Source: a virus. From it: a stretch of DNA of 51,875 bases. Made by a program: the position numbers and the translations under genes. Position 1 is the stretch's first letter. The number at the start of each line of letters is the position of its first letter. The notes under the pieces were generated by a model. The model had not been told where the DNA came from and made no database searches. It saw nothing but the letters and a program-made list of their open reading frames with translations. The stretch spans positions 1-51,875 of IMG/VR virus record IMGVR_UViG_3300020109_000029, one strand, 5' to 3'. This document shows, piece by piece, positions 2,450-51,875 of the stretch.

Positions 2450-2700
2450 CCCCCGCTCAATCTCAATCCTCAACTGCCAAGGCGTCGGACCGGGCCAGTA
2501 ACCCGGCCGGCGAGGCAGTCGAATACGCCCGCGTCGAGAACGGCCAGATCATCCTCATGCTGGATGGCCGGATGCAGCGGGTCCGGCAAGGCACGGCCTG
2601 GGGAGAATGGCTCTCCGCCGTGACCTCGCCCTTTCCATCCACTCAGGAGCGCGCCCGGCAGATCAGGGCCGCGCTCGAAGAGACGGGGTTCTATCAGTGA
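2446..2700 (+). CDS. Small early protein upstream of the annealing protein
   Basis: An 84-residue protein. ATG 2446 is preceded by TTGGAGG at 2431-2437. The first 25 residues are Ser/Ala/Gln-rich, and residues 30-55 look like two beta strands (EYARVENGQIILMLDGRMQR). It lies directly upstream of, and is translationally coupled to, the recombination protein, which suggests a role near recombination; that is context only. Confidence 0.45.
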   Translation: MTPAQSQSSTAKASDRASNPAGEAVEYARVENGQIILMLDGRMQRVRQGTAWGEWLSAVTSPFPSTQERARQIRAALEETGFYQ

Positions 2701-3347
2701 GCTTCACCCCTGAACAGAAGGCGGCGCTCCAGGCACCTTTGAGCCAGGCGCACGTCGCCTCCCGTCAACAGGCGGGCCAGACCCTGTCCTACGTCGAGGC
2801 GTGGCACGTCATTGCCGAGGCCAACCGCATCTTCGGCTTCGACGGCTGGGCGCGCGAGACGATCGACCTGCGCCAGCTTGGCGAGCCGAGGGAGAAAGAC
2901 GGCAAGTTCCGCGTCGGCTATTCGGCCCGTGTCCGCGTGACTGTGACGGCCGGCGACCGTGTTGTGGTGCGCGAGGGGTGTGGCTTCGGCCAGGGCATCG
3001 ACCGCGATCCCGACCAGGCCCACGAAAGCGCACTCAAGGAAGCCGAGAGCGACGCCATGAAGCGCGCGCTGATGACCTTCGGCAATCCCTTCGGCCTGGC
3101 GCTCTACGACAAGAGCAAGGCGAACGTGGCCGAGGTCGGCAATGCCGCCGTGGACTTCGCCATCGGTCAGCTCCGCTGCTGCAAGACCGGCGACGAGTTC
3201 AAGGACTTCTGGGCCAAGAACAAGGATGGCCTGAAAGAGCAACTGACCCCGCGCGAATACGCGACGGTCGTCACGGCCATGCAGGAGGAGGCCAAGCGCT
3301 TCGCTCCGCCGGCCGAAGAACCCACCCCATTCGACAAGGCCGCCTGA
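2697..3347 (+). CDS. Rad52/Rad22-like single-strand annealing protein
   Basis: A 216-residue protein starting at GTG 2697 (GTGA overlap). Residues 18-130 carry the Rad52-fold signature: LSYVEAWHVIAEANRIFGFD, GWARETIDL, a beta hairpin with RVRVTVTAGDRVVVREG, GCGFGQG, then the helix AHESALKEAESDAMKRALMT and FGNPFGLALYD. Proteins of this fold form oligomeric rings on single-stranded DNA and promote annealing, the role RecT or Red-beta plays in other phages. SSB, a coiled-coil protein and NinB follow immediately, so this is the phage recombination module. The C-terminal 70 residues are variable and probably bind partners. Confidence 0.9.
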   Translation: MSFTPEQKAALQAPLSQAHVASRQQAGQTLSYVEAWHVIAEANRIFGFDGWARETIDLRQLGEPREKDGKFRVGYSARVRVTVTAGDRVVVREGCGFGQGIDRDPDQAHESALKEAESDAMKRALMTFGNPFGLALYDKSKANVAEVGNAAVDFAIGQLRCCKTGDEFKDFWAKNKDGLKEQLTPREYATVVTAMQEEAKRFAPPAEEPTPFDKAA

Positions 3348-4180: not shown

Positions 4181-4911
4181 GCGCCCAGCCCATCCATCTG
4201 GCGAACGAGCCTAGCCCCTTCGACGCCCTGCGGATCGACATCGACGATCTGCTGCTAGAAGCGAAGAACTGGTGCGACGGCGAGGCCGCCAAGACCCAGG
4301 AGCAGGTCGACGAGATCGCGCGCCTGATCGACGAGCTGAACGACCGCGCCAAGCTGCTCGACGCCGAGCGCGTAGCGGAGAAGAAGCCACTCGACGAGCA
4401 GATTGCCGCCATCCAGGACCGCTACAACGTCTACCTCGCCCCGCTGAAAAACAAGACGCCGGGCAAGGTGCCGATGGCGCTGGACGCCCTCAACGCGGCT
4501 AAGCGTCCGTTTCTGCTGGCGAAGGAGGCCGAGCTAGAGGCGGCGCGGGAGAAGGCCAGGCTGGAGGCCGAAGAGAAGGCCCGCGTTGCCCGCGAGGCCG
4601 CACAAGCCGCCGCCGCGAACGACCTTGCGGCGCGCGAAGAGGCGGAAGCCAAGATCGCCGAGGCCGAAGCCGCCGCGACCGCCGCTCGCGTGGCGGATCG
4701 TCAGAAGGCCCACGCCCACGGTGGGGGGCGCGCTCATGGCCTTCGCACCCGCGTCGTGGCCGAGATCACCGACCTCAACGCGGCGGTGAAGCACTACTGG
4801 ACCGAAGACCCCAAGCCGTTCCGCGAACTGGCTCAGCGCCTCGCCGATCAGGACGCGAAGGCCAACCGTCGTGTGGCGGCCGGCGTCACCTTCCGGGAGG
4901 AACGGTATTGA
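4177..4911 (+). CDS. Coiled-coil protein of the recombination module
   Basis: A 244-residue protein. Residues 20-100 are helical (EEQVDEIARLIDELNDRAK-type heptads), and residues 115-185 form a long Ala/Glu/Arg coiled coil. A C-terminal domain (RTRVVAEITDLNAAVKHYW to TFREERY) follows. This arrangement recurs in phage genomes between an annealing protein and replication or exonuclease genes, but no activity is known to me. No nuclease motif is visible. Start overlaps the HNH stop; stop overlaps the TTG of NinB. Confidence 0.65.
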   Translation: MSAQPIHLANEPSPFDALRIDIDDLLLEAKNWCDGEAAKTQEQVDEIARLIDELNDRAKLLDAERVAEKKPLDEQIAAIQDRYNVYLAPLKNKTPGKVPMALDALNAAKRPFLLAKEAELEAAREKARLEAEEKARVAREAAQAAAANDLAAREEAEAKIAEAEAAATAARVADRQKAHAHGGGRAHGLRTRVVAEITDLNAAVKHYWTEDPKPFRELAQRLADQDAKANRRVAAGVTFREERY

Positions 4912-5330
4912 GCCGCAACCTCCTTCGCCTCACCCCTGGCGCGCGCCAGCAGGCCCACGCGTGGGTCGAAAAGGCGCTCACCATGTGGTCGCCCGGCAAG
5001 CCCTGGCTGCTGGAGATACGAGAGCCGAAGCGCACCGACGAACAGAACGCCGCCATGTGGGGGCTTCTGGCGCAGATCACGAAACAGCGCCCGGTGCACA
5101 ACGGCCGGCAGATGAACTCTGACCTCTGGAAGGCGGTGTTCATGGACGCCTTAGGCCATGAGGTGGATTACGTCGGCAGCCTGGACGGTAAGCGGGTGTT
5201 TCCGCTCGGGCATCGGTCGTCGCACCTCAACAAGGCGCAGATGTCGGATCTGATCGAGCTGATGCTCGCGTGGTCCGCAGAGCAGGGCCTGACCATCGAG
5301 CACTTCGACGACGAAAGGCTGGCCGCCTGA
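4908..5330 (+). CDS. ninB: NinB-family recombination protein (lambda Orf-like)
   Basis: A 140-residue protein matching NinB/Orf length and layout: a strand RNLLRLTP, a long helix, EIREPKRTDEQNAAMWGLLA, then LWKAVFMDALG and a C-terminal helix MSDLIELMLAWSAEQG. Lambda Orf/NinB binds single-stranded DNA and SSB and can replace RecFOR functions in Red recombination. TTG 4908 is chosen because GGGAGG lies just upstream (4895-4900) and the overlap pattern fits. Its position after the annealing protein and SSB supports the call. Confidence 0.88.
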   Translation: MSRNLLRLTPGARQQAHAWVEKALTMWSPGKPWLLEIREPKRTDEQNAAMWGLLAQITKQRPVHNGRQMNSDLWKAVFMDALGHEVDYVGSLDGKRVFPLGHRSSHLNKAQMSDLIELMLAWSAEQGLTIEHFDDERLAA

Positions 5331-5754: not shown

Positions 5755-6195
5755 ATGACTAGCCCCCATTCCGGCCAGACGGCCTCCATAGGCGACCACC
5801 AACTTTCTTTCACCAACAGAAGAGGAGCGGAAAGCCACGACCCGCGCGCGAAAGCGTCTGGGTGTGATCAGGGAGGGGGCGTCGTCACGCTTGGCGGCTC
5901 CCCCGCTGTTCAGACCGGCGTGGGCTTCCTTCTGAGGTCCGCCCATTCTGCACGCGGGACCGGCGCGATCCACGGCCACACCTACGAAGTCGTTTGCTGG
6001 TTTCCGGCGGGAGACGACGCTGAAGAGTTGCAGGCGAAGTGCGAACGGTCTTGCGCGGACCTAGACCACGCAATCCTTCCGGAAGAACTGGCCTGGGCTG
6101 AAGCCCTGGTCGCCGAAATCATGCGCCGCACCGGAGCAGAAGACGTCGAGATCAGACGGCCCCTTGAGCGTCTTTACGCGAGGCCGCGCCGATGA
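5755..6195 (+). CDS. QueD-like T-fold protein (6-carboxy-tetrahydropterin synthase family)
   Basis: A 146-residue protein. With start ATG 5755, residues 62-146 match the QueD/PTPS T-fold: SAH (His 64) and HGHTYEV (His 73 and 75) supply the three zinc ligands, LDHAIL (104-109) is the conserved Asp-His, and RRPLERLYA carries the substrate Glu. The catalytic Cys normally found just before HGH is absent (TGAIHGH), so it may not make 6-carboxytetrahydropterin. Residues 1-57 are low-complexity, and GTG 5920 would give a 91-residue protein starting at the fold itself. It overlaps the DpdA-like gene by four bases, pointing to a shared 7-deazaguanine role. Confidence 0.7.
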   Translation: MTSPHSGQTASIGDHQLSFTNRRGAESHDPRAKASGCDQGGGVVTLGGSPAVQTGVGFLLRSAHSARGTGAIHGHTYEVVCWFPAGDDAEELQAKCERSCADLDHAILPEELAWAEALVAEIMRRTGAEDVEIRRPLERLYARPRR

Positions 6196-6966
6196 CCGAC
6201 CTCCTGTTCTATCCCGGCACCCACCAGGTCGGCGACGCCAAGCACTTCGACCGCGTCTGCATCAGCCGTAATCGCCTCGTCGGGCGCAAGAAGCCGGTCG
6301 AGTGCGACGATGTCCTGCTCGACTGCGCCGGGTTCACGACCATCGAGAAGCACGGTGGCTATCCGCACCCCCCGGAAGAGTGGGCGCGCGAGGTGCATCG
6401 CCTGAACTCGAACGGCATCCTCAAAATCACCGTCGTCGTGGCACAGGACTACATGTGCGAGCCCTGGATGCTCGCCAAGACCGGCCTGACGATCGAAGAC
6501 CATCAGCGCCTCACAATCGGCCGCTTCGACGCAGTCATTGCCGAACTGCACCGTCTCTACGATGGGCCGCCGCCCTTCGAGGTCATGCCGGTTCTGCAAG
6601 GCTTTGCGATCAGCGATTACCTTCGCCATATCGAAATGTATGGTGACCGCCTCACCCCCGGCATGTGGGTTGGCGTCGGCTCTGTCTGCAAGCGCCAGGG
6701 CGACCCGGCGATCATCGAGGACTTGCTTCTAGCCATTGCAGGAGTGCGGCCGGACCTCCGGCTGCACGGCTTTCGGTGTGAAGCTGACGGCACTCCGCAG
6801 TCCCATCGTTCGCCGGCTGCTCTACAGCGCGGACAGCATGGCCTGGTCCTTTGCAGCTCGGAAGCAGGGCCGCGACGGCAACGACTGGCGCGAAGCCAAG
6901 GCGTTCGAGGCGCGCGCTCTCGTCCCCAGTCGCGAGCCCGAGCAACTGCGATTGTTCTCGGCATGA
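6192..6966 (+). CDS. dpdA: DpdA-like DNA 7-deazaguanine transglycosylase, read through a +1 frameshift
   Basis: The first 194 codons encode a TGT-like barrel related to DpdA (MTDLLFYPGTHQ, LLDCAGFTTIEKHGGYPHPP, PVLQGFAISDYLRHIEMYG, WVGVGSVCKRQGDP, LRLHGF). DpdA enzymes exchange guanine in DNA for a 7-deazaguanine such as preQ0, protecting phage DNA from restriction. After GGC TTT at 6768-6773 the family sequence continues only in the +1 frame (GVKLTALRSPIVRRLLYSAD, ending EQLRLFSA at 6966), giving 257 residues. Unshifted translation runs to 7016 with an Arg/Ser-rich end. Either a one-base insertion or programmed +1 shifting on TTT CGG is involved. Confidence 0.75.
6771..6777 (+). promoter_or_regulatory. 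Candidate +1 ribosomal frameshift site in the DpdA-like gene
   Basis: The zero-frame codons are TTT CGG, and slipping one base forward gives TTC with GGT next, restoring the conserved HGFGVKLTAL reading. tRNA-Phe (anticodon GAA) pairs better with TTC than TTT, which favours the shift. The arrangement resembles the UUU CGU site of the influenza PA-X +1 shift. No stop codon sits in the A site. A simple sequencing or mutational insertion of one C is the alternative. Confidence 0.45.
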
Positions 6967-7012
6967 TCTCCACCAACAAACAGGTGGCCCCGCAAAGCGG
7001 CGGAGAGGGGCG

Positions 7013-8530
7013 ATGAAACCCAAGCTCCTCGACCTTTTCTCAGGCATCGGCGGCTTCAGCCTGGGCCTTGAGCGCGCAGGCTTCGAAACCGTGGCGTTTT
7101 GCGAGATCGCACCGTCGCCTCGTCACCTTCTGGCGACTCACTGGCCGAACGTCCCCTGCTTTGAAGACATCACGACGCTGACCGCTGAAATGGTTGGGCC
7201 TGTCGACGCAATCTGCGGCGGCTTCCCCTGTCAAGACATTAGCTTCGCCGGGAAGGGGGCGGGTTTGGCCGGCGAGCGCTCCGGCCTCTGGAGAGAATAT
7301 GCACGATTGGTTCGCGAGCTACGACCCCGCTACGTCATCGTGGAAAACGTCGCAGCGCTCCTTGGTCGAGGACTTGGAGACGTTCTCGGAGACCTGGCCT
7401 CGCTCGGGTACGATGCGTGGTGGGATTGCATACCAGCTTCCGCCGTTGGCGCCCCTCACCGCCGCGACCGGCTCTGGATTGTTGCCTACCCCGGAGGCGA
7501 GCAACACGAAGGCTACGGCGATGCGCTCCGGAGGGAGATCGCCGCGGGACTTTCTCGCGCCGCTGCCCTCGTGGCCCACACCGACGGCAATGGACGGCCG
7601 GCGCGGGAACAAGCCCCCGAGACCGTGGGATGCGGGAGTCTATTTGCCGCAAGCGGTAGCGATGTGGCCCACGCCGCGAGCGACAGACGGCTCAAAGGGC
7701 GGTCCAAACCAGAGAGGCAGCAAGGGCGACCTTGCCCTGCCGGCGGCGGTGCATCGCTGGCCTACTCCGACGTCCAGCATGGCGAAGGGGTCGTCTCCGG
7801 CGTCACTGACGAGGAAGGACGGACAGGACCGTTCGAACGATCGGTTGGACCACGCCATGCAGGCCCGCGAGGGCAGTGGTCAGCTGAACCCGACGTGGGT
7901 CGAACTCTTGATGGGTTTTCCCGCTGGCTGGACGAAACCTATGGAGACCCGGAAGCCCATAAGGTAATATTGGCTTATGCCAATGCCTCGGAGGCCGGAC
8001 CCCGAAAAGCACTGCGAGACCTGCGGGACCGCATTCGTGCGGAAGATGACCGGCGGGCGGCTGGAGGACCGGTCAGTGTTTCTCCGTCGGAGGTTCTGTT
8101 CGCTTTCGTGCGCGAACACGCGCGGCGAGCTGAAGAAGGGCTCACATCACTGGAGGGCGCGGCGCCACCGTCTGACGGCGTGCGAAGCCTGCGGGGAACG
8201 AAGGGCGCTGCACGTCCACCACTGCGACCAGGACGAGACGAACAACGAGCCGGCGAACCTTCAGACCCTCTGCAAGTGGTGTCACAACTTCTGGCACGCC
8301 ACGCAGAAGCGGCTTGGATTGCCTATCGCTGGCCGGATGCCCGCGCTTCGCAGCCTTGGGTCCACGGATGGGAAGACGGGGTCGGCCGCGTAGCGACCGC
8401 AGTGCCGGCCCGCGTCGACAAGCTCCACGGGCTGGGAAATGCCGTGGTTCCACTCATCCCGGAAATCCTAGGCAGAGCCATCCTAGCCGCACAGGAATCC
8501 ATCACCACCCCCCAATCGAGAGCAGCCTGA
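7013..8530 (+). CDS. C5-cytosine DNA methyltransferase with an internal HNH insertion
   Basis: A 505-residue protein; ATG 7013 follows GGAGAGGGG at 7002-7010. Visible motifs: I (DLFSGIGGFSLGL, 7-19), IV with catalytic Cys (GFPCQD, 70-75), VI (ENV, 111-113), VIII (RRDRLW, 150-155), and at the far end IX/X (VPARVDKLHGLGNAVVP, ending at about 480). A segment WSAEPDVGRTLDGF near 290 and another HGWEDGVGRVATAVP near 455 belong together in related enzymes but are separated here by about 140 residues, where an HNH gene lies in the +1 frame. The methyl frame stays open throughout. It would modify phage DNA against restriction. Confidence 0.85.
   Translation: MKPKLLDLFSGIGGFSLGLERAGFETVAFCEIAPSPRHLLATHWPNVPCFEDITTLTAEMVGPVDAICGGFPCQDISFAGKGAGLAGERSGLWREYARLVRELRPRYVIVENVAALLGRGLGDVLGDLASLGYDAWWDCIPASAVGAPHRRDRLWIVAYPGGEQHEGYGDALRREIAAGLSRAAALVAHTDGNGRPAREQAPETVGCGSLFAASGSDVAHAASDRRLKGRSKPERQQGRPCPAGGGASLAYSDVQHGEGVVSGVTDEEGRTGPFERSVGPRHAGPRGQWSAEPDVGRTLDGFSRWLDETYGDPEAHKVILAYANASEAGPRKALRDLRDRIRAEDDRRAAGGPVSVSPSEVLFAFVREHARRAEEGLTSLEGAAPPSDGVRSLRGTKGAARPPLRPGRDEQRAGEPSDPLQVVSQLLARHAEAAWIAYRWPDARASQPWVHGWEDGVGRVATAVPARVDKLHGLGNAVVPLIPEILGRAILAAQESITTPQSRAA
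7194..7967 (+). CDS. Overlapping +1-frame protein nested in the methyltransferase gene
   Basis: A 257-codon frame lies wholly inside the methyltransferase gene. It contains SYDPATSSWKTSQRSLVEDL, ETWPRSGTMRGGIAYQLPPL, repeated LPTPEAS/WPTPTAMDG/WPTPRATDG/WPTPTSS units and LNPTWVELLMGFPAGWT. From memory, proteins with this motif set are widespread in phage annotations next to or over cytosine methyltransferases, without known function. ATG 7194 is the first start; ATG 7299 with GGAGAG at 7290-7295 is an attractive alternative giving MHDWFASYD. Because the DNA is GC-rich, long chance frames are common, so the motifs, not the length, are the evidence. Confidence 0.5.
   Translation: MGLSTQSAAASPVKTLASPGRGRVWPASAPASGENMHDWFASYDPATSSWKTSQRSLVEDLETFSETWPRSGTMRGGIAYQLPPLAPLTAATGSGLLPTPEASNTKATAMRSGGRSPRDFLAPLPSWPTPTAMDGRRGNKPPRPWDAGVYLPQAVAMWPTPRATDGSKGGPNQRGSKGDLALPAAVHRWPTPTSSMAKGSSPASLTRKDGQDRSNDRLDHAMQAREGSGQLNPTWVELLMGFPAGWTKPMETRKPIR
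7977..8393 (+). CDS. HNH endonuclease embedded in the methyltransferase gene
   Basis: A 138-residue protein with two zinc sites and a clear HNH core: CETCGTAFVRK and CSLSCAN (residues 13-45), then CEACGERRALHVHHCDQDET, NNEPANLQTLCKWCHNFWH (69-107). The catalytic HH, Asn and final His are all present. It is in the +1 frame of the methyltransferase, nine bases after the stop of the overlapping frame at 7967, and ends inside the region encoding methyltransferase motif IX. It looks like a homing nuclease that landed in the variable region without closing the host frame. Confidence 0.8.
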   Translation: MPMPRRPDPEKHCETCGTAFVRKMTGGRLEDRSVFLRRRFCSLSCANTRGELKKGSHHWRARRHRLTACEACGERRALHVHHCDQDETNNEPANLQTLCKWCHNFWHATQKRLGLPIAGRMPALRSLGSTDGKTGSAA

Positions 8531-11305: not shown

Positions 11306-11354
11306 CGACCGTTTCTGTCGTGCCTGTATGTTCTCCCTTCGTTCCGAGGGAGAC

Positions 11355-12539
11355 ATGGCGCGCAAGGTCGATCGACTTAACTGGAAGCAGGTCCAAGGCC
11401 TGAGGGAGCCGGGGCTTTATGCCGACGGCGCCGGCCTCTACCTGCGCATCGATCAGACCGGCTCACGCCGATGGGTCTGGATCTTCCAGTATGCGGGTCG
11501 GCGGCGGGAAATGGGCCTAGGAAGCGCCGACGGGCAGAAGTTGGCCGAGGTCCGCGAGAAGGCCGACGAGGCGAGAGCGGTGCTGAAGCAGGGTCTCGAC
11601 CCGATAGCCGAGCGCCGGAAGGCCAACGAGCCACCGCCGGACAATCGGTTCAGCACCGTGGCGACGGCCCTCATGGACAACCTGCAGGAAGGCTGGAAGT
11701 CGCCGAAGCAGCGAGGGCAGTGGGAGGCCTCCCTCAAGCAGCACGCGCCGAAGATCTGGGATGCAGACGTGCGGGCCGTTGATACGGAGATGGTCCTGGC
11801 TGCGCTCAAGCCGATCTGGTCGAAGAACCGGGAGACCGCTTCTCGGGTCAGGTCGCGGATAGAACGGGTGCTGAGCGCGGCCAAAGCTAGAGGCCTGAGG
11901 GAAGGGGAGAACCCGGCCCTCTGGCGCGGACACCTGGACCAGCTATTGACCCGCTCGAAGCAGGAGAAGGGTCACCATGCGGCCATGCCCTATGGCGATG
12001 TGCCGGGGTTTCTCGTGCGCCTGGCTGAGCGCGACAGCATATCGGCCAATGCGCTCCGCTTCCTGATCTTCACCGCCGCTCGGTCTGGAGAGGTGCGTGG
12101 CGCCACGTGGGACGAGATCGATGGAGACCTATGGGTCGTGCCGGCCGAACGTATGAAAGGCGGCCGAGAACATCGCGTGCCGCTGAACGAGGGCGCGCGG
12201 GGTGTCCTGGACGAGATCGACGAGACTCTGCGGCGAGGCCTGATCTTTCCCGGGCTGAAGGGACCGTTGTCCGACATGGCCTTGGCGATGGTGATGAGGA
12301 AGCTGGGAGTGGTTAACGCCACGCCGCATGGGTTTCGGTCGGCCTTCAAGGACTGGGCCGTCGATTGCACGTCGTTTTCCGACGAGATCAGCGAGGAGGC
12401 CCTGGCCCATACCGTCGGGTCGAAGGTCCGCCAGGCCTACCGCCGCGGCTCGGCCATGGAGAAGCGCCGGCTCCTGATGGCGGCATGGTCGGATCATTGT
12501 TTCGGCCGGGTCGGCAACGTCGTTCAGTTGAAAGCCTAG
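11355..12539 (+). CDS. int: Tyrosine integrase, P4/DUF4102 type
   Basis: A 394-residue recombinase. Residues 1-95 are the DUF4102-type N-terminal domain (YADGAGLYLRI, RRWVWIFQYAGRRREMGLGS). The middle is a SAM-like core-binding domain, and the C-terminal half holds the catalytic residues: Arg in TAARSGEVRGATW (about 242), HGFR (about 323-326), His in LAHTVGSKVRQAYRRG (about 351) and the Tyr in the same motif (about 361). ATG 11355 has GAGGGAG upstream; an in-frame ATG at 11328 lacks one. It integrates at the tRNA-Ser site. Confidence 0.93.
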   Translation: MARKVDRLNWKQVQGLREPGLYADGAGLYLRIDQTGSRRWVWIFQYAGRRREMGLGSADGQKLAEVREKADEARAVLKQGLDPIAERRKANEPPPDNRFSTVATALMDNLQEGWKSPKQRGQWEASLKQHAPKIWDADVRAVDTEMVLAALKPIWSKNRETASRVRSRIERVLSAAKARGLREGENPALWRGHLDQLLTRSKQEKGHHAAMPYGDVPGFLVRLAERDSISANALRFLIFTAARSGEVRGATWDEIDGDLWVVPAERMKGGREHRVPLNEGARGVLDEIDETLRRGLIFPGLKGPLSDMALAMVMRKLGVVNATPHGFRSAFKDWAVDCTSFSDEISEEALAHTVGSKVRQAYRRGSAMEKRRLLMAAWSDHCFGRVGNVVQLKA

Positions 12540-39624: not shown

Positions 39625-41025
39625 TTAGCTTCTTTCGCGCTTCCCCCCAAGCACATCAGCGTCATCGTCAGGCGACCCGAGCGCGTCTCGCTCCTCATCT
39701 TCCGAGACCTCATCCCCGAACTTATCGGCGTCGCTGAGCGGCTCGCGCCCGACTTCCGAGCGCATCTCATCGCCAGTGAAGACCAACTCATTGGAGGCGC
39801 GCATCTTGTCGTTGACGGCAGCCATTCGTTCGACCCGCTCAAGCATTTCATTCGGGGAGGGGTCGAGCAGGCTCTTCCAGTCCAAGAACCAGTCCTTCGC
39901 CGGCAGGATGCCGAAGCGCTCCAGGCGGTTTACGAAGCCCATGATCGACGGGATCGCCTGATTGGTCCGCCGGGCCATGTTGACCTTGGCCCATTCCTCG
40001 CTGTCCTCGGTCGAGGCGCGTTCGCCGGTCTGGGAACCGATCAGCACCTTCATCGGGATCGAGAACGATGCCGCGAACGATTGCGCGGCCACCGCGAAGA
40101 AGTGCTCAGGGGAGGGCAGGGTGACCTGCATCGGGGTCGCCTTGATGCCCTGCAGAAGCAGCGACTTGTCGAAGCCGGCGTTGAAGCCCTCGACCTGCTC
40201 GTCGATCTTGTCCACGACCTCCGTGACTGGCACGCCCATGGTGGCGGCCATGTTCTCGACCTTGGCGTCCTTGTCGATCTCCAGAGACAGGCCGGACTTA
40301 GCGTTTTTCCAGAAGCCCTCGCCGCCGCCGCCCCGGATCTTCTCCATGTCAAGAAGGGCGTTGTATCCGGGCTCCAGGGCCGACCGACCGTTCAGCGTCC
40401 CGTCCCGCGACCAGATGACGACCCTATCGGGGTGGATCTCGAACTGGCGCGGCTGCTTTTGCTGACCGACGGCGCTCTCACTGAACTGGAACATCAGCGG
40501 CTGGCCGTAGGTCTTGGACCGTTCGTCCGTGTCCCACTGGCTGACAGTCAGTTGGCCCTCCCATGCCGGGATGACCTCGACCAGGCCCTCCAGGCCGCCG
40601 GGCACACGCTCCACAGGCTCCTTGAACTGCCGGCTGTCAGCCAAGCGCAGGATCAGCCCCGAATAGGCGCCGACCAGACCGCGGCGGTCGCACTCGGCCA
40701 GATGCTGCCAGACGCGAAGATCACCGAAGCGCTGGCGGATGTCCGCCTCGACCATCGTCTCCCCTTGGTCGCCGCTTTCGGTGCCGTCCCGCTGGTACTC
40801 CTGCAGGAAGGGGTTGTCTTCCCAGGTCTTGCCGATGGTTTTGTCCACCGCCGCCCGAGCCAGAGGATTGCGGCAGTAGGCGTCGAACGCCAGGGGAAAC
40901 GTGACCTGATCGGGATAGCCGAAGTCGGCAGCATGGTTGTGCTTCTGGGCCCCGAAGAAGTAGCCGGGGAACATGGCCTGCAGCGAGCGGCTCGCGACGT
41001 TGGCCAGAAGGTGACGCGCGCTCAT
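39625..41025 (-). CDS. Portal protein (DUF1073 type)
   Basis: A 466-residue protein: FPLAFDAYCRNPLARAAVDK, GLVGAYSGLILRLADS, HPDRVVIWSRDGTLNGRSAL, FNAGFDKSLLLQGIKATPMQ, SFSIPMKVLIGSQTGERAST and DWKSLLDPSPNEMLERVERM are typical of DUF1073 portals. Twelve copies form the packaging vertex. The start overlaps the large-terminase stop (TGATG). The last 50 residues are acidic. Confidence 0.88.
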   Translation of the reverse strand: MSARHLLANVASRSLQAMFPGYFFGAQKHNHAADFGYPDQVTFPLAFDAYCRNPLARAAVDKTIGKTWEDNPFLQEYQRDGTESGDQGETMVEADIRQRFGDLRVWQHLAECDRRGLVGAYSGLILRLADSRQFKEPVERVPGGLEGLVEVIPAWEGQLTVSQWDTDERSKTYGQPLMFQFSESAVGQQKQPRQFEIHPDRVVIWSRDGTLNGRSALEPGYNALLDMEKIRGGGGEGFWKNAKSGLSLEIDKDAKVENMAATMGVPVTEVVDKIDEQVEGFNAGFDKSLLLQGIKATPMQVTLPSPEHFFAVAAQSFAASFSIPMKVLIGSQTGERASTEDSEEWAKVNMARRTNQAIPSIMGFVNRLERFGILPAKDWFLDWKSLLDPSPNEMLERVERMAAVNDKMRASNELVFTGDEMRSEVGREPLSDADKFGDEVSEDEERDALGSPDDDADVLGGKRERS

Positions 41026-42335
41026 CAGCGGTGGCGCTTCGAAAGGAACATGGCGACGGTCGATTGCTCGCCCAGCATCAGTTCAGTCAGAGCCCAGACC
41101 AAGGCATCGGCGCGGTCAGGCGATCCTTCGCCGACGAAGCCAGCGGCAGTGAAGTTGCACATCTGGTCCTCCAAGTCGGGGAAGTCGCCGACATGCGAAA
41201 CGAGGCCTTGCTCGTAGAGAGCGGACACAGGCTCGGCCCGGACCACCTTGCCCCGGCTGGCCTTCACGTCGTGGTAGGCAACCAGCTTGTCCGCCGTCTG
41301 GACGACGAACCTAACCATGTCCCCGCCGAAGTTGGATTCGCCGACGATCCGATCGGCGTTGAACTCTTTGTAGGCCGTCACCGCCATGCGGCCCCAGCCG
41401 TCCGGTGATAGCTGGCATGTCCGATCCGCCAGGATATACGCCCGGCCATCGACGCCCTTGCCGGCGACCACGATGCCGATGTCATCCCCGCCGCCATCGC
41501 CCTTCGTGCCGGAGGGGTCCACCGCGACCACGATGCGCTGCATGGCCGGTGCGGCGTCCTCGGCGATCCGCGTGCTGTCGATGCCCGGCATCACCCGGCC
41601 ATCTGGCGCCAGACGATCTTCCAAGGTCCACAGCGCTCCGTTGACCTCTGACGCCCACTCGCCGCGCTCAAACCGCTGCCGCTTCGCCGCGGACATCCCC
41701 GCGAGGATTTCGAAGTACTTCGGCGGAAGGTTCGCCTCGTTGTCCCTCGGGTTCACCAGCATCTCGACGTAGTCGTCGGGGTCGGGAAGCGCCTCTTTCG
41801 TCCCGGGCTTCAGCTTGAGGCGGAAGAGTTGGAACGACCAGTGCAGTTTGGATGGCGGGTTGCAGTCGAAGTAGGCCTTGAGAGCGAGGCCGCTGTTCTC
41901 AGCCAGGCGGGACATCGCCACTTCGATGGAGGACCAGGGGATCTGGCTGCTCTCGTTGAAGTAGATGGTCGAGTACTCGCCGCCGAGTATCTTCTCGACC
42001 CGAGCTTTATCGTCCAAGCCGCCGAGGATCAGCTGCGACCCGTTCGGAAAGGTCGCAACCAGGTCAGTCTCGTTTAGGTCCAGCGGCACGTCCGGAAAGC
42101 AGAGCCGCATCACCTTCGGAAAGGTGTCCTTCCAGATCGACGCCTTCGCATGATTGAATCGGAAGCGAAACACAGCGTGCTTGCTATTCGCCGCCTTCAT
42201 CGCGCGGATGCACATCGCCCGGATAATCAGGAACGTCTTGCCAGAGCGCGACCCGCCCCGGAGCATGATGTTCGTCGCCTTGCTGGCGAGAAGCCTATTC
42301 GCCTCCCGCTGCTTCGGCGTCAACGAGAACGCCAC
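41025..42335 (-). CDS. terL: Large terminase subunit
   Basis: A 436-residue protein. ATPase: Walker A GGSRSGKT (27-34), Walker B STIYFNESS with catalytic Glu 128. Nuclease: VVAVDPSG (about 268-275) with the first Asp, GESNFGGDM, and DRADALVWAL with the last Asp. It packages DNA through the portal and cuts it. It follows the small subunit by one base. Which packaging mode is used (cos or headful) cannot be decided by reading; the permuted break hints at headful. Confidence 0.93.
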   Translation of the reverse strand: MAFSLTPKQREANRLLASKATNIMLRGGSRSGKTFLIIRAMCIRAMKAANSKHAVFRFRFNHAKASIWKDTFPKVMRLCFPDVPLDLNETDLVATFPNGSQLILGGLDDKARVEKILGGEYSTIYFNESSQIPWSSIEVAMSRLAENSGLALKAYFDCNPPSKLHWSFQLFRLKLKPGTKEALPDPDDYVEMLVNPRDNEANLPPKYFEILAGMSAAKRQRFERGEWASEVNGALWTLEDRLAPDGRVMPGIDSTRIAEDAAPAMQRIVVAVDPSGTKGDGGGDDIGIVVAGKGVDGRAYILADRTCQLSPDGWGRMAVTAYKEFNADRIVGESNFGGDMVRFVVQTADKLVAYHDVKASRGKVVRAEPVSALYEQGLVSHVGDFPDLEDQMCNFTAAGFVGEGSPDRADALVWALTELMLGEQSTVAMFLSKRHR

Positions 42336-51231: not shown

Positions 51232-51875
51232 GTGGCAAGCCCAACCCTTTCCCTAGTGACCACGGCCCAAGAAGCCGCCGAGCGCTACAATGCCTTCCTC
51301 GCCAGTGATGCGCTGATTCAGAACGGCTGGCATGACGAACAGGACGGCCGACAGCTAGCCTGCGCCCTGGGCGTCCTCGGGGAGGAGGTCGAGGGGGCTA
51401 AAGATTGTCCTGCCACGGTCATGCCGCGCTGGCTGGCGCAGATGGTTCCGGGCTTCTTCGACTGCCAACGGTTTGAGGACGCGAAGGACTGGGGCCGGCG
51501 TTTCTACGAACAACTGGCCCGTCTTGGAGGCGACGTGCCGTTCAACGTCGTCCACGACTGGCAGGCCCATACGGTCGGACCCCTCGCTGTAGAGCTCGCC
51601 GAAAAGCGGGGTCGCGACGTCGAGCCTCACAAGGCCTTGGCCGAAATGCAGCGGAAGGCCCTCACCGGCCAGAAGTTCACTGCCGATGAGTGGCGCCCGA
51701 TCTTGAAGGACGCGTTTTACGACATCTACCTGTGTCGCTACGACGCCGACGCCGACGCCGACGCCAACGCCGACGCCGACGCCTACGCCTACGCCAACGC
51801 CAAAGCCGACGCCTACGCCTACGCCGACGCCAACGCCTACACCAACGCCGACGCCGACGCCTACGCCTAAGCCAA
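51232..51875 (+). CDS. N-terminal part of Ala-X repeat protein, first gene of the rightward arm
   Basis: Starts at GTG 51232 (MASPTLSLVTTAQEAAERYN). Residues 1-170 form a non-repetitive domain: NGWHDEQDGRQLACALGVLG, PRWLAQMVPGFFDCQRFEDA, DVPFNVVHDWQAHTVGPLAV and EWRPILKDAFYDIYLCRYD. From residue 171 the Ala-X repeat runs. A TAA at 51868-51870 interrupts it just before the window end, where bases of the hexamer pattern are missing, so it is probably an end artefact. The gene then continues at base 1. Function unknown. Confidence 0.7.
51744..51868 (+). repeat. Tandem GCCNAC hexanucleotide repeat, right end
   Basis: About twenty units of GCC-NAC, with Asp, Asn and Tyr codons and single Lys (AAA) and Thr variants. 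The segment from 51762 (Ala-Asn-Ala-Asp-Ala-Asp-Ala-Tyr) repeats a segment at 37-75. The hexamer register breaks in the last ten bases. Confidence 0.9.

Follow-up and report, generated by a model that had tools for sequence, protein, structure and literature searches.

Probable +1 ribosomal frameshifting in a DpdA-type transglycosylase gene paired with a QueD-fold gene in a temperate phage

How might a complete DpdA-type transglycosylase be made from a phage gene whose two parts stand in different reading frames? The locus lies in the 51,875-base virus record IMGVR_UViG_3300020109_000029 (GC content, 65%), the whole of which was analyzed and is called the window here. A preliminary description had placed in it a two-gene 7-deazaguanine DNA modification block (positions 5755 to 6966), with a QueD-like open reading frame (ORF; 5755 to 6195) overlapping a DpdA-like gene. 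Both genes were recovered, as was their overlap of 4 bases (ATGA, with the dpdA ATG at 6192). The reading of dpdA as one open frame did not stand, as 6966 is the stop codon of the +1 frame and the frame opened at 6192 runs on to 7016 (Table 1). The two parts of DpdA fall in different frames because of an extra base at 6774. The preliminary description had the outline right but gave the wrong reading frame, and the frameshift escaped it.

Table 1. Features of the T-fold/dpdA locus and selected other genes of the window
Feature	Positions	Strand	Remarks
Rad52-type gene	2607-3347		
NinB gene	4908-5330		
QueD/PTPS-fold (T-fold) protein	5755-6195	+	core at approximately residues 54-146 (5914-6192)
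dpdA, zero-frame part, residues 1-194	6192-6773	+	PF23859, E 1.6e-28 (open frame); phrog_1279, E 4.2e-54
Predicted RNA hairpin, 10 bp, 4-nt loop	6741-6764	+	ends 3 nt before the shift site, directly upstream of GGC_UUU
Predicted +1 frameshift site GGC_UUU_CGG (E, P, and A codons)	6768-6776	+	extra base C at 6774
Unshifted zero-frame continuation	6774-7016	+	unrelated sequence after Phe194; dN/dS approximately 2 versus L002
dpdA, +1-frame part, residues 195-257 and stop	6775-6966	+	last barrel strand with invariant D214
C5-cytosine DNA methyltransferase	7013-8530	+	PF00145, E 8.8e-40
Tyrosine integrase	11328-12539		

The gene starting at 6192 encodes a DpdA-type transglycosylase, as the preliminary description had proposed, and we hold this assignment with more assurance than the frameshifting discussed below. 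The missing C terminus of DpdA, with ADSMAWSFAARKQGR, was found in the +1 frame up to position 6966, and when TTTC is read as a single Phe step, an uninterrupted DpdA of 257 amino acids results. Joining the two parts raises the match to PF23859 from 100 bits for the zero frame to 132 bits (curated cutoff, 27). The AF2 model of the joined product is a full barrel (pLDDT, 93.4; pTM, 0.90) that matches the archaeosine TGT 1iq8 (Z score, 18.3) and the DNA preQ0 insertase DpdA 7ui4 (Z score, 18.2) along almost its entire length. Two invariant aspartates, D44 and D86, are encoded in the zero frame, and a third, D214, which is invariant in a 63-row alignment and sits on the last strand, is encoded 3' of the frame break and only in the +1 frame. 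The three residues can come together in one product only by +1 frameshifting, and the unshifted product lacks D214, which by analogy with TGT would be the nucleophile. The gene thus shares its sequence family and TGT-type barrel with known phage DpdA (Hutinet 2019, PMC6884629; PF23859; and 7ui4) but differs in that the window and two relatives need a +1 frame change for a complete barrel, a need for which we found no report in the literature that we looked at.

The frame break was followed through 124 distinct dpdA loci. These came from phage records and from scans of viral contigs, two of which used DpdA queries, one a motif, and one the C terminus. The gene is in frame in 119 of the 124, and in three an additional base follows the same Phe codon; the remaining two are a Microcystis phage pair, counted once, with its break elsewhere, and L024, the frame of which was not resolved. 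The insertion recurs in three lineages, namely, the window (GGC TTT CGG), L047 (representing L002 and L003; GGC TTT CGG), and L171 (representing L090 and L163; GGC TTT TGG), whose N-terminal parts are 62 to 69% identical to each other. Widening the motif scan of viral contigs brought in only L090/L163, none of 33 matches from a motif scan of genome contigs encoded DpdA, and a search for DpdA in 385 genomes of the class to which a presumed alphaproteobacterium (G001) belongs gave no match and was uninformative. The Microcystis phages Mwe-JY07 (L031) and Mwe-JY25 (L169) were left out of the trio, as their dpdA break lies elsewhere, further on (near CGG AGG C), and it is the ADSMAWSF part that falls in the +1 frame. 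An assembly or sequencing error in the window, a concern with any contig of an uncultured virus such as this one, is most improbable, as the same insertion is present in contigs of at least two other data sets at 62 to 69% identity.

Comparison of the window with L002 indicates which frame is maintained. The +1-frame C terminus is 87% identical between the two, versus 69% for the N terminus, and dN/dS is lowest in the +1-frame C terminus (0.068), followed by the N-terminal part (0.128), and reaches 2.0 in the unshifted continuation. To judge from these substitution patterns, selection acts on the +1 frame, and the unshifted continuation is not conserved as a protein. In all three members of the trio the unshifted frame is open past the true stop, as it is in 20 of 76 in-frame relatives (P = 0.022). 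The overlap of the zero-frame stop with the next start codon was given no particular weight, a similar ATGA being found in 14 of the 76 in-frame relatives. In L090, the +1-frame C terminus carries an in-frame insertion of approximately 30 or more residues between AARKA and DPNDWREA.

In an alternative reading, DpdA is split, with the C-terminal part separately started in the +1 frame and joining the N-terminal part as a second chain. Possible starts in the +1 frame are an ATG (ATGGCTTTC) just 5' of the shift site in L002 and a TTG at 6736 in the window. At the position of the L002 ATG, however, both the window and L090 have ACG, the conservation starts exactly at the shift junction, and the break between the chains would lie within the barrel, between its last two strands. 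We therefore regard separate initiation as quite improbable and favor a change of frame during translation.

At the shift site, the trio has the motif UUU_YGG (UUU_C or UUU_U), which would allow re-pairing in the P site. The Phe codon is TTT in all three loci, versus 26 of 78 in-frame relatives, in which TTC is commoner (P = 0.043). UUU_Ynn is especially prone to +1 frameshifting in bacteria, with no stop codon needed (PMC5009743), and influenza PA-X is made by a shift on UUU_CGU (PMC3498833). The site in the window resembles the UUU_Ynn/UUU_CGN sites of influenza PA-X and Yersinia YopN-TyeA (PMC3498833 and PMC5009743) in the type of slippery tetranucleotide and in the direction of the shift; it differs from them in lying in a phage gene, in the gene concerned, and in its conserved upstream hairpin.

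This GC hairpin is present in all three loci, where it ends 3 nt upstream of the site, with 10 bp in the window and L171 and 8 bp in L047. In the window, the 27-nt stretch ending just before GGC has a folding energy of −19.7 kcal/mol, the strongest among the 124 dpdA loci, and the trio takes ranks 1, 2, and 5 of 124 in a test designed after the hairpin had been noticed. When the same 27-nt test was slid over 181 positions of the gene, the trio stood out most at the shift site, which lessens but does not remove the bias of an after-the-fact test. Synonymous recoding reached the hairpin stability of the trio members in 0.1%, 0.45%, and 1.45% of trials. Similar hairpins also occur in some in-frame relatives (L175, L149, and L023). 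Downstream of the site, no convincing stimulatory structure was found (z scores, approximately −1.2 to 1.6), and CGG is not a rare codon in the window phage (22.6 per 1,000 codons). A precedent comes from yeast, where +1 shifting on a CGG-containing site is stimulated by a hairpin lying upstream of it (PMC3639245).

From these features we infer that full-length DpdA is likely made by programmed or compensatory +1 ribosomal frameshifting. With CGG waiting in the A site, the tRNA-Phe in the P site would slip from UUU to UUC, and the GC hairpin, re-forming directly upstream, would help the slip. Ribosomes that did not shift would make an inactive barrel without the last strand and Asp214 and would terminate at the start of the next gene, a methyltransferase gene whose ATG (7013) is overlapped by the TGA of the unshifted dpdA frame. 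The case for frameshifting comes from three independent loci only, all of them uncultured contigs. With the in-frame L093, the trio forms one clade (support, 99/95), and L093 is the nearest sister of L047; because of this position of L093, the shift is either dispensable or was gained more than once.

The same position of L093 has a bearing on a different account, in which the insertion has inactivated dpdA, leaving a pseudogene in decay whose C terminus seems conserved merely through the recency of the mutations; on parsimony, separate recent insertions formally do no worse than one gain plus one loss. Under that account, however, two or three insertions must have struck one codon of approximately 257 in the same direction, every one of them yielding UUU_Y behind a strong hairpin, and no other disabling change is present in the window, L047, or L171, where the +1 frame runs without interruption to the usual C terminus. 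We consider decay of the gene unlikely and retain frameshifting as the reading that fits these loci.

The product of the gene upstream of dpdA had been called a QueD-like T-fold protein in the preliminary description. The start of this gene is uncertain (ATG at 5755 or GTG at 5920). The sequence alone gives a weak Pfam PTPS match (E value, 0.098), and no homologues in viral contigs were found with the window sequence alone as the query. Searches for relatives of the T-fold homologue of the Caulobacter phage DMCA gave 15 further viral loci, and a 14-member family alignment reaches solved QueD/PTPS chains (E value, 8e-8). The fold itself was borne out: structure prediction of both proteins, which the preliminary description had named as a check, gave the TGT barrel for DpdA and a T-fold for its partner (pLDDT, 89.8), the latter with matches to PTPS/QueD structures at Z scores of 11 to 12.6. 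HGH and the Asp-His pair are kept in all family members of the 14-member alignment, and the first His is present in all 14 except the trimmed L093 row, placing the protein, as a T-fold with His zinc ligands, in the PTPS/QueD superfamily. The catalytic Cys before HGH is absent from all 14 members, and the score against the TIGR03367 QueD equivalog is 15.6 bits, below the cutoff of 89.25. Because it lacks the catalytic Cys and falls below the equivalog cutoff, the product of 5755 to 6195 is a QueD-superfamily T-fold protein and not a member of QueD, so that the fold named in the preliminary description was upheld and an identity as standard QueD was not. In common with QueD and 6-pyruvoyl tetrahydropterin synthase, the protein has the T-fold, the zinc-site histidines, and the Asp-His pair; unlike them, it is shorter, is without the catalytic Cys, and is encoded by a gene coupled to DpdA.

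A DpdA/TGT-type gene lies directly 3' of the T-fold gene in most of the loci examined, with some of the compared stretches ending inside the second gene and with the second gene starting slightly further on in L037 and L038. The partner is of the PF23859 type in the window, L002/L003, L093, and L035; in DMCA and the majority of the other T-fold loci examined, it belongs to a second TGT-like family. Further T-fold matches were found in L250, L217, L118, and L208, loci that had been fetched through dpdA. In DMCA (PQ480021, DMCA_035c/034c), the T-fold protein is 41% identical to that of the window and its gene directly overlaps a TGT-family gene, as in the window, but the DMCA TGT gene is of the phrog_887 type and in frame, whereas that of the window is of the PF23859 type. 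The two DpdA subfamilies did not match each other when their sequence profiles were compared, and they are linked by the phrog_887 annotation (queuine tRNA-ribosyltransferase) only. No Cellulophaga phage was among the matches of a QueD search. In the Sinorhizobium phage phiLM21 (L030), a YhhQ/Vut_1-type transporter gene (6777 to 7304; E value, 5e-14) lies directly 3' of dpdA.

The window and L003 have a common gene order (Rad52, SSB, NinB, HNH, T-fold, and dpdA), despite which their T-fold proteins are only 23% identical. The cytosine methyltransferase gene that the preliminary description had placed next door is indeed there, and two base modifications in one phage are possible; because L003 has a different ORF in its place, the methyltransferase is not a conserved neighbor of the cassette. 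Within the methyltransferase gene there is a second conserved frame (frame B; 7194 to 7967, plus strand), which matches 361 phage records; between the window and L033, the overlap is 55% identical in frame A and 58% in frame B, a pattern that may reflect dual coding. An HNH-endonuclease-like ORF (7977 to 8393, plus strand; Pfam HNH matches weak) also overlaps the methyltransferase ORF. The host virus of the cassette is a temperate phage, with its packaging and tail block on the opposite strand, and no tRNA genes were found in the window. Its large terminase (41025 to 42335, minus strand) is 74% identical to those of the Synechococcus phages Yong-M4-211 and Ssp-JY42, of which Yong-M4-211 carries a gene of the GcrA type, usually alphaproteobacterial. 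The contig ends in a simple tandem repeat (approximately 51700 to 51875) read as low-complexity ORFs (ADADA.../GVGVG...).

The absence of FolE, QueE, and QueC noted in the preliminary description was confirmed, with no match to QueC, FolE (GTP_cyclohydroI), or radical-SAM proteins anywhere in the 51.9-kb record and with positive controls detected. Because none of these genes is in the record, the substrate is likely a host-made 7-deazaguanine. Phages that encode DpdA but few or no precursor genes have been described before and are not uniform in their modification state (PMC6884629). The cassette probably puts a modified guanine of the 7-deazaguanine type into DNA, DpdA being the enzyme that would exchange it for guanine, and the T-fold protein would probably tailor or supply the host-made precursor before insertion, a role that we hold with less assurance than the frameshifting. 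DpdL, reportedly put forward by Cui in 2023 as a predicted 7-carboxy-7-deazaguanine decarboxylase, would fit such a role, as a small tailoring enzyme beside DpdA with a host intermediate as its substrate; this likeness in role makes a DpdL-like decarboxylase a possible lead. The QueD-like fold and the zinc-site histidines would suit a divergent QueD that is still active and supplements the queuosine pathway of the host, an alternative to which we give little weight in view of the lack of a catalytic Cys in 14 of 14 family members, the TIGR03367 score of 15.6 versus 89.25 bits, and the position of the gene next to DpdA-type genes without FolE, QueE, or QueC here. A tailoring or supplying role is preferred.

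A more far-reaching proposal, which we offer only tentatively, is that a dedicated +1 frameshift cassette, made up of the upstream hairpin and UUU_YGG, balances active DpdA against translation of the gene that follows and that the QueD-fold partner without the catalytic Cys is a new enzyme that tailors 7-deazaguanines for two distinct DpdA/TGT subfamilies. To our knowledge, internal +1 frameshift sites without a stop codon have rarely been documented in bacteria and phages, and they are hard to spot. If the proposed shift is real, a conserved site in a DNA modification gene would mean that phages dose the enzyme at translation and that gene callers would misannotate such genes as truncated. 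The recurring T-fold/DpdA pair is a candidate for an uncharacterized step that would connect the queuosine pathway of the host with the modification of phage DNA.
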